From Comamonas kerstersii (GTDB taxonomy: Bacteria > Pseudomonadota > Gammaproteobacteria > Burkholderiales > Burkholderiaceae_C): a stretch of 64,000 bases of DNA. Location of the stretch: positions 124,001 to 188,000 of the forward strand of contig NZ_VZOT01000004.1 in the NCBI RefSeq assembly GCF_008801935.1, read 5' to 3'. The stretch's first letter is position 1. Every line of letters starts with the position of its first letter. Below, one piece after another: positions 3,020-59,124 of the stretch. The position numbers and the translations under genes were made by a program. The notes beneath the pieces were generated by a model. The model ran no database searches, was not told the DNA's origin, and saw only the letters and a list, made by a program, of their open reading frames with translations.

Positions 3020-4978
3020 ATGAACGACTTTTTGAATGAGCAGGGCCAGCAGGCCGCTGCAGACGTGTCTTTGGACGCAACTTTGGACACCATGCTGGCT
3101 GAAATGGATGCGGAAGATACCGCTGCCGCCGCAGAAGAAGTGCCCGCAGGCCCCAATCCTTTTGAAGCACTGGGTCTGGCTCCTGAGCTGGTCCGCGCTG
3201 TCACCGACATGGGCTACACCCAGCCTACCCCCGTACAGGCACAGGCCATTCCTCTGGCCATGGGCGAAGGTGCTGATGCGGACGGTTATATCGACCTGAT
3301 GGTCTCCAGCCAGACAGGTTCGGGCAAGACCGCAGCTTTCCTGCTGCCCGTGCTCAACACCCTGATTCAGCAAAAGGCAGAAGAAGAAGCAGAAGCCAAG
3401 GCGGAATACGACCGTCTGGTGGCAGAAGCTGCTGCTCGCGGCGAACCTGCTCCCAAGCGCAACAAGCGCAAGGACCCCACTAATCCTCGCAATTTCAAGG
3501 CTGCCGTGCCCGGCGCCCTGATCCTGTGCCCCACACGTGAGCTGGCACAGCAGGTGGCGCATGACGCCATCGAGCTGGTCAAGCACTGCCGTGGCCTGCG
3601 CATTGCCAACGTGGTGGGTGGCATGCCTTATCAGGTACAGATTGCCAAGCTGCAGAATGCCAACCTGGTCGTGGCTACGCCAGGCCGCCTGCTGGATCTG
3701 CAGCGCTCCATGCAGATCAAGCTGGACAAGGTGCAGTTTCTGGTGGTGGACGAAGCTGACCGCATGCTGGATCTGGGCTTTGCCGATGATCTGGCAGAAG
3801 TGAACCAGATGACTGCGCAGCGCAAGCAGACCATGATGTTCTCGGCCACGTTTGCACCACGCGTGCAGCAACTGGCCATGCGTGTGATGCATGATGGTGG
3901 TTCCAACGTCAAGAAGGTGACTATCTCTACGGCGCAGGAAAAGCACTCCAATATCAAGCAGGTGCTGTTCTGGGCGGACAACGCCCAGCACAAGCGCAAG
4001 CTGCTGGACCACTGGCTGCGTGATGAGTCCATCAACCAAGCCATCGTGTTTGCCTCTACGCAAGTGGAGTGTGATGGTCTGGCAACTGACCTGCAAGAAG
4101 CTGGTTTCTCGGCTGCTGCTTTGCACGGCGCTTTGAGCCAAGGTTTGCGTAACCGCCGTCTGATGGCGCTGCGCAATGGCCAGATTCAGGTGCTGGTGGC
4201 AACTGACGTTGCTGCGCGAGGTATTGACGTGCCCACCATCACCCACGTGTTCAACTATGGCCTGCCCATGAAGGCAGAAGACTACACCCACCGCATCGGC
4301 CGTACTGGTCGTGCCGGTCGTGAAGGTGTGGCTGTGACATTTGCGGAATTCCGCGACCGTCGCCGTGTGTTTGACATTGAAGGCTATACACGCCAGCAGT
4401 TCAAGGCAGAAACCATTCCTGGCATGGAGCCTCAGCAGCGCTTCCCAGCCGCTGGCGAGCGCGATGGCCGCCGTGGCGGTGGTGGTCGTGGTGGCTTCGG
4501 TGGCCGTCGCGATGGTGATGGCTATGGCCGCAAGCAGGGCTTTGGTGACCGTGGCGGTTTTGGCGGTGGTCGTCGTGAAGGTGGCTTCGGCGGTGATCGT
4601 CCTCGATTGGGTGGTGATCGTGACCGTGGTGGCTTCGGTGGTGACCGTCCTCGCTTTGAAGACCGTGGCGGTGATCGCGGTGGCTTCGGCGGTCAGCGTC
4701 GCGAAGGTGGTTTTGCAGATCGCAAGCCCGCATTCGGTGACCGTCCTGAGCGCGGTGGCTTCGGTGGCGATCGTCCCCGTTTTGGTGGCGAGCGCGAGCG
4801 TGGCAACTTTGGCGGTGACCGTCCTCAGCGCGAGCCTCGCAGCTTTGGCGGTGATCGTTCCCGCTTTGAAGACCGTGGCGGTGACCGTGATCGCGGTGGT
4901 TTTGGCGGTGGTCGCCGTGAAGGCAAGTCTTTCGGTGGTCGTGACGACCGTCGCAAGAGCTTCCAGCACGACCGCTAA
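3020..4978 (+). CDS. DEAD-box ATP-dependent RNA helicase with RGG-type tail (RhlE/DeaD-like)
   Basis: ATP-dependent RNA-duplex unwinding, probably in ribosome assembly or RNA decay. The 652 residues contain the Q motif (around 65-75), motif I SSQTGSGKT (96-104), PTREL (171-175), DEAD (244-247), SAT (275-277) and HRIGRTGR (424-431). Between motifs I and Ia there is a charged Glu/Ala/Lys insertion at about 117-160 that standard RhlE proteins lack. Residues 481-652 form a low-complexity tail of repeated GGFGG, DRPRF and RGG-like units, expected to bind RNA and possibly to drive condensates. The ATG at 3020 was chosen because the upstream in-frame extension lacks conservation; the ribosome site is weak, which fits regulation through the leader. 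A rho-independent terminator follows. Confidence 0.92.
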   Translation: MNDFLNEQGQQAAADVSLDATLDTMLAEMDAEDTAAAAEEVPAGPNPFEALGLAPELVRAVTDMGYTQPTPVQAQAIPLAMGEGADADGYIDLMVSSQTGSGKTAAFLLPVLNTLIQQKAEEEAEAKAEYDRLVAEAAARGEPAPKRNKRKDPTNPRNFKAAVPGALILCPTRELAQQVAHDAIELVKHCRGLRIANVVGGMPYQVQIAKLQNANLVVATPGRLLDLQRSMQIKLDKVQFLVVDEADRMLDLGFADDLAEVNQMTAQRKQTMMFSATFAPRVQQLAMRVMHDGGSNVKKVTISTAQEKHSNIKQVLFWADNAQHKRKLLDHWLRDESINQAIVFASTQVECDGLATDLQEAGFSAAALHGALSQGLRNRRLMALRNGQIQVLVATDVAARGIDVPTITHVFNYGLPMKAEDYTHRIGRTGRAGREGVAVTFAEFRDRRRVFDIEGYTRQQFKAETIPGMEPQQRFPAAGERDGRRGGGGRGGFGGRRDGDGYGRKQGFGDRGGFGGGRREGGFGGDRPRLGGDRDRGGFGGDRPRFEDRGGDRGGFGGQRREGGFADRKPAFGDRPERGGFGGDRPRFGGERERGNFGGDRPQREPRSFGGDRSRFEDRGGDRDRGGFGGGRREGKSFGGRDDRRKSFQHDR

Positions 4979-5027: not shown

Positions 5028-5150
5028 GTGCCTGTTGTTTTAAAAAGAGAAGCGCCTGGCGCTGGTGAAAAGCCAGTTTCAGAATGCTTTCTATCTGAAA
5101 GTGGCTTGCTGCCGGCGCAAGCAGCTATGGTTTGTGTAGAAGGCAACAGC

Positions 5151-5183: not shown

Positions 5184-5187
5184 GATT

Positions 5188-5263
5188 TGGTGGGCCCTGA
5201 AGGATTCGAACCTTCGACCAACGGATTAAGAGTCCGCTGCTCTACCAACTGAGCTAAGAGCCC
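5188..5263 (-). tRNA. tRNA-Lys (anticodon CTT), copy 3 in transcription order
   Basis: A 76-nt cloverleaf read on the minus strand: acceptor GGGCTCT pairs with AGGGCCC with one G-U; D-arm GCTCAGTTGGTAGAGC; anticodon loop CTCTTAA with CTT at 34-36; T-arm GAAGG-TTCGAAT-CCTTC; discriminator A and an encoded CCA. It decodes AAG. It is identical in sequence to the next two copies. Confidence 0.97.
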
Positions 5264-5312
5264 TTCTGCAACCAGAAAAGATTCAATGCGCTGTGGCAAT
5301 GAAGAGAAATTT

Positions 5313-5388
5313 TGGTGGGCCCTGAAGGATTCGAACCTTCGACCAACGGATTAAGAGTCCGCTGCTCTACCAACTGAGCTAAGAGCCC
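5313..5388 (-). tRNA. tRNA-Lys (anticodon CTT), middle copy
   Basis: The same 76-nt sequence as its neighbours, with encoded CCA and CTT anticodon. A 49-nt spacer separates it from the downstream copy and a 22-nt spacer from the upstream copy. The spacers are unrelated, so only the tRNA units are duplicated. Confidence 0.97.
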
Positions 5389-5410
5389 GACAAGAAACGA
5401 AAGCAAGAAG

Positions 5411-5486
5411 TGGTGGGCCCTGAAGGATTCGAACCTTCGACCAACGGATTAAGAGTCCGCTGCTCTACCAACTGAGCTAAGAGCCC
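5411..5486 (-). tRNA. tRNA-Lys (anticodon CTT), promoter-proximal copy
   Basis: First of three identical tRNAs on the minus strand. Upstream, a CATAAT -10-like element (plus-strand 5520-5525) is followed by a GC-rich discriminator typical of stringently controlled stable-RNA promoters. I could not place a convincing -35, so the promoter is not listed separately. Confidence 0.97.
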
Positions 5487-14801: not shown

Positions 14802-14889
14802 GCGGTAGCAAGGAGAAAAGACAAAGCAGACAGCATGTGGATGCTATCAATGCCGCAGTGGCTGTGCGGCGGTGCTTGAAAAATAAGAG

Positions 14890-14974
14890 CTTCCAGCGCT
14901 TGATAGTGCTTGGATTCAAATTGAAAAGCATCTGAAATCCTTGCAATACAAGCGCTGGCAGCTATGAAAAGTAG
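14890..14974. repeat. Dispersed palindromic repeat, copy A
   Basis: Outer arms AGCTTCCAGCGCTTG and CAAGCGCTGGCAGCT enclose a GAAAAGCATCTGAAATCC core that is shared with copies B and D. It lies in the gap between sbcD and the broken chemoreceptor gene. A further partial unit, GTAGCGCTTTCAGAG, sits just beyond it. Confidence 0.75.
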
Positions 14975-18220: not shown

Positions 18221-18299
18221 GCTGTGTTTCTCCTTGTTCGGGCAATGGTAGGCAAGAGCCTTGACCTGTGAGGGTGCAGGGATTCGTTCTCTGAAAACA

Positions 18300-18380
18300 A
18301 TAGCTGCCAGCGCTTGTATTTATTGAATTTCAGATAGAAAACTATCTGAAATCCTTTATTTGCAAGCGCTGGCAGCTATA
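18300..18380. repeat. Dispersed palindromic repeat, copy B (most complete)
   Basis: Outer arms ATAGCTGCCAGCGCTTG and CAAGCGCTGGCAGCTAT pair almost perfectly. Inside is a second palindrome, TTTCAGATAG and CTATCTGAAA. The whole 81 bp could fold as a long hairpin with an internal arm. It lies between the ABC gene start and the cysK terminator. Confidence 0.85.
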
Positions 18381-31089: not shown

Positions 31090-31136
31090 TTGATAGCTGC
31101 TAGCGCTTTCTGCATAAGCGCTAGAGCCTGATTTGA
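31090..31136. repeat. Dispersed palindromic repeat, copy C (short form)
   Basis: TTGATAGCTGCTAGCGCTTT and AAGCGCTAGAGCCTGATTTG form the arms of a short variant placed between hslV and hslU. It could act as a hairpin that tunes the hslV:hslU ratio. Confidence 0.7.
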
Positions 31137-40281: not shown

Positions 40282-42174
40282 ATGCAAGACCCAGACTTCA
40301 TGCACCAGCAGCCTTCTGTCACAGAGCCAGAAGCTGCAGCTGCGGTGGAAAATGCAGAATTGATAGCTGCTAGCGCTGAAGAAATCAGTGTTTCAGATGG
40401 AAAAGCATCTGAAATAATTGATGAACAAGCGCTGCAAGCTACAGAAATAAAAGCGATATCGGTGGCTGACACCGTGATTCCCTCGCTGGATACGCTGACC
40501 GCTGCCAAGGACGCTGCCGCTTTTGTGGCCCAGATTTTTGCCGACCCCGGTGTCTCGGACGCCGCAGACAACGAAGTCACGCAGCCCGAGCCGCAGGAGG
40601 CGGTGGAGGTGGTGGAGCTGCCGCCCGTGCCCGCCCAATGGCCTCAAGGCCAGGCGCAGCATCTGCAGGGCCAGCGTGTGCTGATTCTGGGCCTGGGTGC
40701 TTCTGGCATGGCCATGGCGCGCTGGTGTGTGCGTGCAGGTGCGCAGGTCACGGTGGCCGACACCCGCGAAGCACCGCCCCAGCTGCCCAAGCTGCAGCAG
40801 GAATTGCCCAGCGTGCGATTTGTGGGCGGCGCGCTGACGGCGGCACTGGTCGATGGGCAGAACCTCACGGCGGTGTATCGCTCGCCCGGCCTCACTCCCG
40901 AGTCCATCGCGGAGGTCGTACATGCTGCGCGTGCGATGGGGCTACCCGTGGGCGGCGAACTGGATCTGTTTGCCGCTGCGCTGCAAGGTTTGCAGCAGGC
41001 CCATGGCTATGCACCCAAGGTGCTGTCGGTAACGGGCACGAACGGCAAGACCACGGTGACTTCGCTGACCGGCAAGCTGCTCGAGCATGCTGGCATGCGC
41101 GTGGGCGTGGCCGGTAATATCGGCCCCACATTGCTCGATACGCTGAGCGCTCGCATTGATGCTGAGGATTTGCCGCAGGCATGGGTGCTGGAGCTGTCGA
41201 GCTTCCAGCTCGATGGCGTGCAGGGCTTTGAACCCACGGCCGCCGTGGTGCTCAACGTCACGCAGGACCACCTCGACTGGCACGGCAGCATGCAGGCCTA
41301 TGCTGCTGCCAAGGCCTGCATCTTCGGGGAAACGGCGCTGATGGTGCTCAACCGCGAAGACCGCATCGTCATGGACATGCTGCCTGCGCCGGTCAAGGTC
41401 AAACTGCAAAAGCCCCAGCTGCGTGCCCATGTGACCTTTGGCTATGACATGCCACGCCGCCCCGGTGACTTTGGCATTGAAATGGTCGCAGGCATGCCCT
41501 GGCTGGTGCGCGCCATGGACGCAGACAACACCGGCCGCCGTGCGCGTGATCCGGAGGAGGAACTGCACATCCAGCGCCTGCTGCCTGCAGACGCTTTGCG
41601 CATTCGTGGTCGCCACAACGCTACCAATGCCATGGCCGCACTGGCTCTGGCGCAGGCGGCGGGAGCCGCGCTGGCCCCCATGCTCTACGGTCTGCGTGAA
41701 TACCGGGGCGAGCCCCACCGCGTGGAGCCCATCGGCATGGTCAACGGCGTGGAATATTTCGACGACAGCAAGGGCACGAACGTGGGCGCGACGGTGGCTG
41801 CGCTCACCGGCCTGGGAGCAGACCGTCGTATGGTGCTGATCCTGGGTGGTCTGGGCAAAGGCCAGGACTTTGCGCCACTGGCTGCCCCTGTGGAGCGCTA
41901 TGTGCGCGCCGTGGTGCTGATTGGCCGCGATGCCCCCTTGATTCGCCAGGCCCTGCAGGGCACGGGCGTGCCGCTGCTGGATGCACAGGACATGGCGCAG
42001 GCCGTGCAGCTGGCCAGCCAGCATGCCAAAGCCGGAGAAGCTGTATTGATGAGCCCTGCCTGCGCCAGCATGGACATGTACCGTGACTATGCGCATCGCG
42101 CACAGGCCTTTATCGACGCGGTCAAGGATCTGGCGGATGAGGCTGGGCAAGTGCTGGAGGGCTATCCCCTATGA
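40282..42174 (+). CDS. murD: UDP-MurNAc-L-Ala:D-Glu ligase MurD with a long N-terminal extension
   Basis: Adds D-glutamate to UDP-MurNAc-L-Ala. The core begins near residue 128 ([14 protein letters not shown]); ATP binding is at V250-T258 (TGTNGKTT), and the DDSKGTN and MSPACASMD segments near the end are conserved. The frame is 630 residues against about 440 in E. coli. Residues 1-127 are acidic, Ala/Glu-rich and not part of MurD; residues 27-54 are encoded by a copy of the dispersed palindromic repeat. A GAGG site and the 3-bp gap from mraY support the start at 40282; GTG codons near 40609 are possible alternatives. It overlaps ftsW by 4 bp. Confidence 0.93.
40362..40443 (+). repeat. Dispersed palindromic repeat, copy D, inside the murD reading frame
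   Basis: Aligns end to end with copy B: GATAGCTGCTAGCGCT, then TTTCAGATGGAAAAGCATCT, then CAAGCGCTGCAAGCTAC. It is read in frame as [15 protein letters not shown] followed by [14 protein letters not shown], with no stop codon. Confidence 0.8.
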
Positions 42175-54332: not shown

Positions 54333-54382
54333 ATTTTGATAGCTGCTAGCGCTTATCTGGTAATCCTTAGAGGCTGATTTTC
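54333..54382. repeat. Dispersed palindromic repeat, copy E (short form)
   Basis: ATTTTGATAGCTGCTAGCGC followed by TTATCTGG and the half-conserved CTTAGAGGCTGATTTT. It matches copy C, with a degenerate right arm. It lies immediately upstream of ruvC. Confidence 0.65.
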
Positions 54383-58958: not shown

Positions 58959-59045
58959 AGGGCGGTGATTGTCCCACGCTGCAGATTTCCCCCGAGCGCT
59001 GCACGCCTCGAAAAATGCAGTGTGGAATGTGTGCTTTTGAAAAAG

Positions 59046-59124
59046 GAGCTGCCAGCGCTGGTTATGCCTTGGTTTCCATATGTTTTATATGTAAAACCAT
59101 TGTCTATCAAGCGCTGGCAGCTCA
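59046..59124. repeat. Dispersed palindromic repeat, copy F
   Basis: GAGCTGCCAGCGCT and AGCGCTGGCAGCTC arms surround a second inverted repeat, GGTTT.CATAT and ATATG.AAAACC. It lies between the divergent RNB gene start and the 3' end of the esterase gene. Confidence 0.8.

Follow-up and report, generated by a model that had tools for sequence, protein, structure and literature searches.

Palindromic repeats that code for protein are best known from the obligate intracellular bacteria Rickettsia and Wolbachia, and one such element, RPE1, keeps a single reading frame. Palindromic insertions in frame have been described in Wolbachia and in Methanocaldococcus jannaschii (PMC2996958). REPs of the GTAG/CGTC type occur within genes, including uvrA and genes for RNA helicases, in Opitutus terrae, Thauera, Thioalkalivibrio and others (PMC3733652); neither Comamonas nor Acidovorax is named in the main text of that paper. 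Two shorter motifs, GCTTAT(N)5AAGCG of Acidovorax ebreus and ATAGCT(N)22CAAAAG of Polaromonas, were listed as potential novel motifs with 114 and 125 copies, mostly intergenic; the paper puts 5 and 18 of these copies in genes and mentions no coding role for them (PMC5217627). In-gene palindromes have precedents in Rickettsia, Wolbachia, M. jannaschii and a number of free-living bacteria, so the kind of element described below is already known. The family itself is new as far as our literature search reaches; with subscription papers lying outside its reach, the search returned no report of the element in Comamonas coding sequences.

The murD copy and its repeat family

The window, by which we mean the whole stretch of 64,000 nucleotides of Comamonas kerstersii DNA that was analysed, carries murD as a frame of 630 codons (40282..42174, + strand) whose ATG lies 3 bp past the mraY stop with a GAGG ahead of it. 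Matches to TIGR01087 (murD) and to Pfam MurD-like_N both begin at residue 132, so that about 131 residues stand ahead of the MurD fold; from residue 132 the canonical portion (40675..42171, +) also matches Pfam Mur domains and solved MurD structures. The palindromic element lies in frame within this extension at 40362..40443 (+), where it codes for residues 27-54 and supplies only about 27 of the roughly 131 residues. Its parts, all on the + strand, are the left outer arm TAGCTGCTAGCGCT at 40364..40377, the left inner arm TTTCAGAT at 40391..40398, the right inner arm ATCTGAAAT at 40407..40415 and the right outer arm at 40428..40441, the last at the same distance of 64 nt from its left counterpart that the intergenic copies show.

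The copy falls into a direct-repeat family of the window (40358-40441, 14881-14964, 18295-18378 and 59040-59123) with 67-74% identity to the reference copy. Against a nucleotide HMM made from 40 other copies of the same genome (G000), intergenic copies only, it scored 52.4 bits (E 1.4e-15, model positions 3-81). Codon shuffling of the window's murD region gave at best 9.0 bits in 5000 trials, shuffling of 59 murD 5' regions at best 11.6 bits in 5900, and 201 pieces of adjacent coding DNA at best 9.8 bits. A sequence-only reading of the same DNA had claimed that 40362-40443 is homologous to the intergenic copies, is open in frame as residues 27-54 and follows an ATG placed 3 bp past mraY behind a GAGG. 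The frame and the ATG at 40282 were confirmed, and the homology was borne out, the similarity being far better than the chance level that was to count against it. That reading also took the first 127 codons not to be MurD: the non-MurD extension is real, and its length is closer to 131 codons, given that the domain matches start at 132.

Three of the other copies in the window are non-genic by the coding test used: 14886..14967 (- strand), copy B at 18298..18379 (+) and 59044..59123 (+), where a long frame scores as non-coding. A degenerate copy at 5051..5128 (-) scores 31-39 bits. The examined stretches of G000 hold 105 distinct copies, of which 102 are full length, and the arm pattern matches 171 times, against once for a reversed control pattern. 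The element is some 80 bp long; its outer arms lie 64 nt apart around the inner TTTCAGAT palindrome. In an alignment of 33 copies the arms, the feature considered for a comparison with MITEs, are present, and the two ends read ATAG...CTAT, some single copies reading GTAG. T-rich runs flank the element on both sides (T fraction 0.70-0.78 at positions 4-6 past it). Covariance-model matches were obtained in 43 of 53 Comamonas genomes, plentiful in some and few or none in others, with up to 87 matches listed per genome. The element would appear to be a non-autonomous palindromic repeat, mostly intergenic, that belongs to one part of Comamonas. With their palindrome and two-sided T-runs, the intergenic copies, 18298-18379 included, could act as two-way transcription terminators; 9 of the 102 copies start at the stop of a gene or no more than five codons away from it, the genes in question reaching as far as the copy or a little way into it.

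A strict in-gene test (30 codons on each side) passed none of the 102 copies, murD included, and was set aside as too strict for a 27-codon tail. Under a relaxed test three of the 102 open into downstream coding DNA, and of these only murD has an upstream ATG or GTG. This census of G000 was weighted towards high-scoring copies; a copy in hrpA (G000:C2:122387-122479) escaped it and came to light in a peptide profile search.

Other repeats were seen in the window. A short 45-nt repeat at 31090-31134 and 54336-54380 has the same outer arm as the element. Three tandem 78-nt units, 97-100% identical and resembling tRNA genes on the minus strand, occupy 5186-5486, and a Gly/Arg-rich repeated coding stretch of GGFGGDR-like units at 4473-4923 was detected as repeat families.

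The MurD extension and the history of its element

Alignment of MurD N-termini and murD 5' DNA, as the earlier reading had proposed, covered the 49 of 53 Comamonas genomes with readable mraY-murD junctions; one further locus (L114) is broken and three were not included. On the Comamonas jiangduensis contig (L021/L114) both murD and mraY are frame-shifted in the draft, probably through assembly errors. An open extension of 75-180 residues is present in all 49 intact loci and the element in 22 of them. Ten Acidovorax-type loci have MurD extensions of 87-186 residues; in Limnohabitans and other relatives MurD starts directly at the fold. Because extensions that lack the element occur in other Comamonas and in Acidovorax, the extension is independent of the repeat.

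One stretch of the extension, residues 74-86 (40501..40539, +), is conserved in both Comamonas and Acidovorax, with invariant columns in the alignment and a dN/dS of 0.14. It gave nothing above cut-off in Pfam or NCBIfam, is a helix at low confidence in the structural model, and may be more interesting than the repeat itself. The AlphaFold2 model of MurD (mean pLDDT 67.2) places residues 1-109 below 50 and begins the MurD fold at 132; the element peptide, as modelled, sits in the disordered part of the tail.

Recognition of the element in murD depends on the threshold: at least 10 bits are reached in 22 of the 49 loci, at least 15 in 18 and at least 30 in 10, and at 6 bits or more there are 27 loci, all in one frame. 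In L062 the left part of the element is deleted and the register there is unreliable. The 22 recognisable copies occupy the same place in the same frame, and the murD copy is not peculiar to the window's genome. In a tree of MraY and MurD all 22 belong to one clade of 30 species (support 0.87). Eight members of the clade score below 10 bits, so a single insertion requires decay or loss in these; none of the 19 Comamonas outside the clade reaches 10 bits in murD (L108 scores 9.0). The 12 bases past the element are alike among the 22 copies, with G at position 84 in 22 of 22 followed by A in 22 and A in 21, and the lengths around the element vary (10 distinct upstream, 12 distinct downstream). 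The simplest account of the murD copies is one old insertion that was then inherited.

For the peptide encoded by the element, dN/dS is 1.01 when calculated from 111 close pairs and 0.90 from six sister pairs. The corresponding values for the MurD core are 0.18 and 0.09, and the linker outside the element gives 0.43. The element also differs from its surroundings in composition: in nine loci its GC fraction is 0.41-0.46, and that of the remaining extension 0.61-0.70. Drift alone does not account for the pattern, since silent sites diverge less in the element than in the core (0.163 against 0.291 in the six sister pairs). The peptide has the look of a passenger that drifts, not of a part with a function, and the proposal that the repeat became part of MurD stands for its presence in frame in the gene, not for a functional role in the protein.

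The element in other protein genes

The first further case was a copy in a pxpB-pxpC fusion, in the murD frame, among loci of two other genomes. A profile of ten element peptides, searched in the 53 Comamonas genomes, identified at least 30 non-murD long stop-free frames (539-1988 codons), and the in-gene copy counts are lower bounds. The DNA model confirmed 29 of the 30 listed non-murD loci with 18.7-53.6 bits and found nothing in the remaining one, the uvrA locus L317. Coding scores were positive on both flanks in 27 of 29 tested loci; the exceptions are a C-terminal tail (L311) and era (L323), where the element is N-terminal and the start uncertain. The hosts belong to eleven families, hrpA, rpoN, uvrA, pxpB-pxpC, a biotin carboxylase fusion, aceF, rbbA, phaZ, a FemAB-like family, YqaJ and era, named with Pfam and NCBIfam for representatives and otherwise by length and flanking residues or by HrpA and RpoN searches. 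The UvrA host is double-length, and the carboxylase host is a biotin carboxylase-carboxyltransferase fusion.

In several of these proteins the element is found between domains. In RpoN it covers residues 154-183, with domains ending at 122 and starting at 210; in the biotin carboxylase fusion residues 469-500, between 460 and 502; and in PxpB-PxpC residues 260-293, between 247 and 321. It also lies between Pfam domains in AceF, RbbA and Lpd, and in a tail in PhaZ, as in MurD. The HrpA copy falls inside the region assigned to DUF3418, and that of the FemAB-like protein inside the family region. At 15 bits or more the element is present in 18 of 32 HrpA loci examined and in 14 of 28 placed RpoN loci (two of 30 could not be placed). 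The HrpA region measures 69-79 residues with the element and 69-80 without it, and no clean empty site was found among the 32 loci; plain insertion fails to explain HrpA because the length is the same in either case.

Of 250 genomes in the family, eight matched the peptide profile at E<=1e-5, and six of the eight do not belong to Comamonas. Seven of the places were examined, the matches in G241 and G247 being left out, and six lie in uvrA, hrpA, rbbA and lpd (L396 and L398 were named by flanking residues only). The uvrA, hrpA and rbbA copies in other genera sit in the same linkers as in Comamonas.

As the element is a palindrome, its six frames reduce to three classes. Among 40 intergenic copies the murD class is open in 11 and 11, the second class in 5 and 2, and the third in 0 and 3. 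The peptide of the second class is rich in Leu and Phe, and that of the murD class is hydrophilic. When a profile of the second class was used, many copies were recovered, but none of its nine listed long-frame matches was coding on both sides. The preference for one frame, 27 of 29 for the murD class against 0 of 9 for the second, comes from profiles that are each confined to one frame and from a search of two of the three classes. Stops and hydrophobicity together would leave a single usable frame.

Competing readings and comparison with known systems

Any explanation has to accommodate the observed homology, position, frame, clade distribution, drift and recurrence in other genes. We think it probable that the repeat entered the murD tail in the ancestor of the clade and has since been inherited, drifting, as a tolerated passenger, and that the same happened in other genes. 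A repeat of about 80 bp would have entered the murD stretch for an already long, disordered N-terminal tail in the ancestor of about 30 species, presumably by way of a mobilising enzyme, and would have landed, or persisted, in the single frame that is frequently open and yields a hydrophilic peptide. Because that frame was used, murD would have stayed open, with the ligase fold about 80 residues downstream untouched. The copy would then have been inherited, its peptide drifting almost without constraint and decaying past recognition in some species, and it most likely acts as a mere spacer in MurD, with no function of its own. At least eleven further families of housekeeping genes would have taken up the repeat in the same way, in linkers or tails.

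The main doubt about a one-time insertion comes from the same-site copies in other genera, which point to re-entry or gene conversion at favoured linkers. The linkers of HrpA, UvrA, RpoN and MurD might be hot spots that are re-seeded or homogenised by intergenic copies, an alternative that we regard as a serious but minority possibility. The elements of HrpA, UvrA and RbbA stand at matching places across genera even though the murD peptide drifts fast. Each of the 22 genomes that carry the element in murD has at least 20 listed matches elsewhere, and no murD copy occurs in the 17 genomes below that number. However, ten genomes with at least 20 listed matches have no murD copy of 10 bits or more, the link with copy number is confounded by relatedness, and the murD copies have flank and frame in common and are distributed in keeping with the tree. 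A bolder proposal, also a minority possibility, is that the in-gene copies form a coding-adapted lineage, moving or being copied between genes in one frame, apart from the intergenic copies. For 52 in-gene copies the nearest relative outside the own gene was another in-gene copy in 36 cases and an intergenic one in 11, with five ties; the intergenic set included 21 distinct copies from two other genomes, and L399 (a 262-codon frame with no Pfam family) was excluded. Several bases differ in frequency between in-gene and intergenic copies (C82, 0.96 and 0.11; A73, 0.81 and 0.23; G45, 0.67 and 0.11; C28, 0.52 and 0.02). Several of these diagnostic bases also raise the hydrophilicity of the peptide, and the search profile favours the resulting residues. 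Such a lineage is doubtful because mean identity is equal between in-gene copies of different genes (0.601) and between in-gene and intergenic copies (0.602), and convergence or search bias could yield the diagnostic bases.

Conservation suggests that MurD is translated from the upstream ATG, so that the element peptide would be part of the protein. Were translation to start downstream, the element would be an untranslated leader. In favour of this, in-frame GTG codons occur downstream of the element but ahead of the conserved stretch and also close to residue 106, MurD begins at the fold in Limnohabitans and other relatives, and the era case is N-terminal as well. Yet all 27 species copies are open in one frame, the stretch after the element is constrained as protein, and the element stands between conserved parts of one protein in hrpA, rpoN, uvrA, aceF, pxpB-pxpC, rbbA and the carboxylase fusion, so that a wrong start seems improbable to us. 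We consider it quite improbable, too, that the hairpin is kept as an RNA or DNA element, for instance in murD translation control or mRNA stability. The terminator-like intergenic family, a strong palindrome with T-rich flanks, and the low silent divergence of the murD copy would suit such a role. However, the murD copies keep on average 18.0 of 36 Watson-Crick pairs, compared with 25.4 in intergenic copies and 22 in other in-gene copies. When arms are crossed between species murD retains 17.0, a test that is weak because intergenic copies themselves give 25.0 crossed against 25.4 with their own arms. Finally, linkers are of low complexity and the peptide profile was built from such peptides, so an Ala-rich linker could resemble the repeat by composition. 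Codon shuffles, neighbouring DNA, the second frame and confirmation at the DNA level argue against chance and leave it a negligible probability; for the window copy it is refuted (52.4 bits against at most 11.6 shuffled).

This family, found in a free-living group at matching linkers of MurD, HrpA, RpoN, UvrA, AceF and others across dozens of species, provides a tractable system. It lends itself to asking by what route a selfish repeat gets into proteins, what restricts it to one frame, for how long the peptides persist and whether any become useful.

Among the systems considered, a GTAG/CGTC REP with its RAYT was rejected: such REPs have units of 20-40 bp tagged with GTAG or CGTC (PMC3733652), whereas the Comamonas element is about 80 bp and reads ATAG...CTAT. 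The two Y1_Tnp genes of G000 are unflanked by the element (best 0.3 bits and none in the examined flanks). The Acidovorax ebreus motif GCTTAT(N)5AAGCG (PMC5217627) matches the short repeat of the window at 31104-31119, that is, the short form and not the 80-bp one, and common arms suggest that the short Acidovorax and Polaromonas motifs are linked to the longer form. The palindromes of Wolbachia and M. jannaschii are also in frame, in other lineages, and are likened here by description.

The closest parallel, already suggested by the sequence-only reading and reinforced by finding the same repeat in frame in eleven further Comamonas gene families, is with the Rickettsia palindromic elements. 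The likeness is one of descriptions rather than of compared sequences. Rickettsia elements are about 150 bp long (PMC10969869); the Comamonas element has about 80 bp, occurs in free-living Comamonadaceae and lies mostly outside genes. In both, a multicopy palindrome also occurs in frame in housekeeping genes that are not related to one another, at positions that function tolerates (PMC10969869, PMC2996958). The Comamonas repeat is a genomic palindromic family with whole in-frame copies in unrelated genes, at linker or tail positions. It is presumed to be mobile and its peptides to be translated, and we take it to be one new family of protein-coding palindromic elements that would work like those of Rickettsia.
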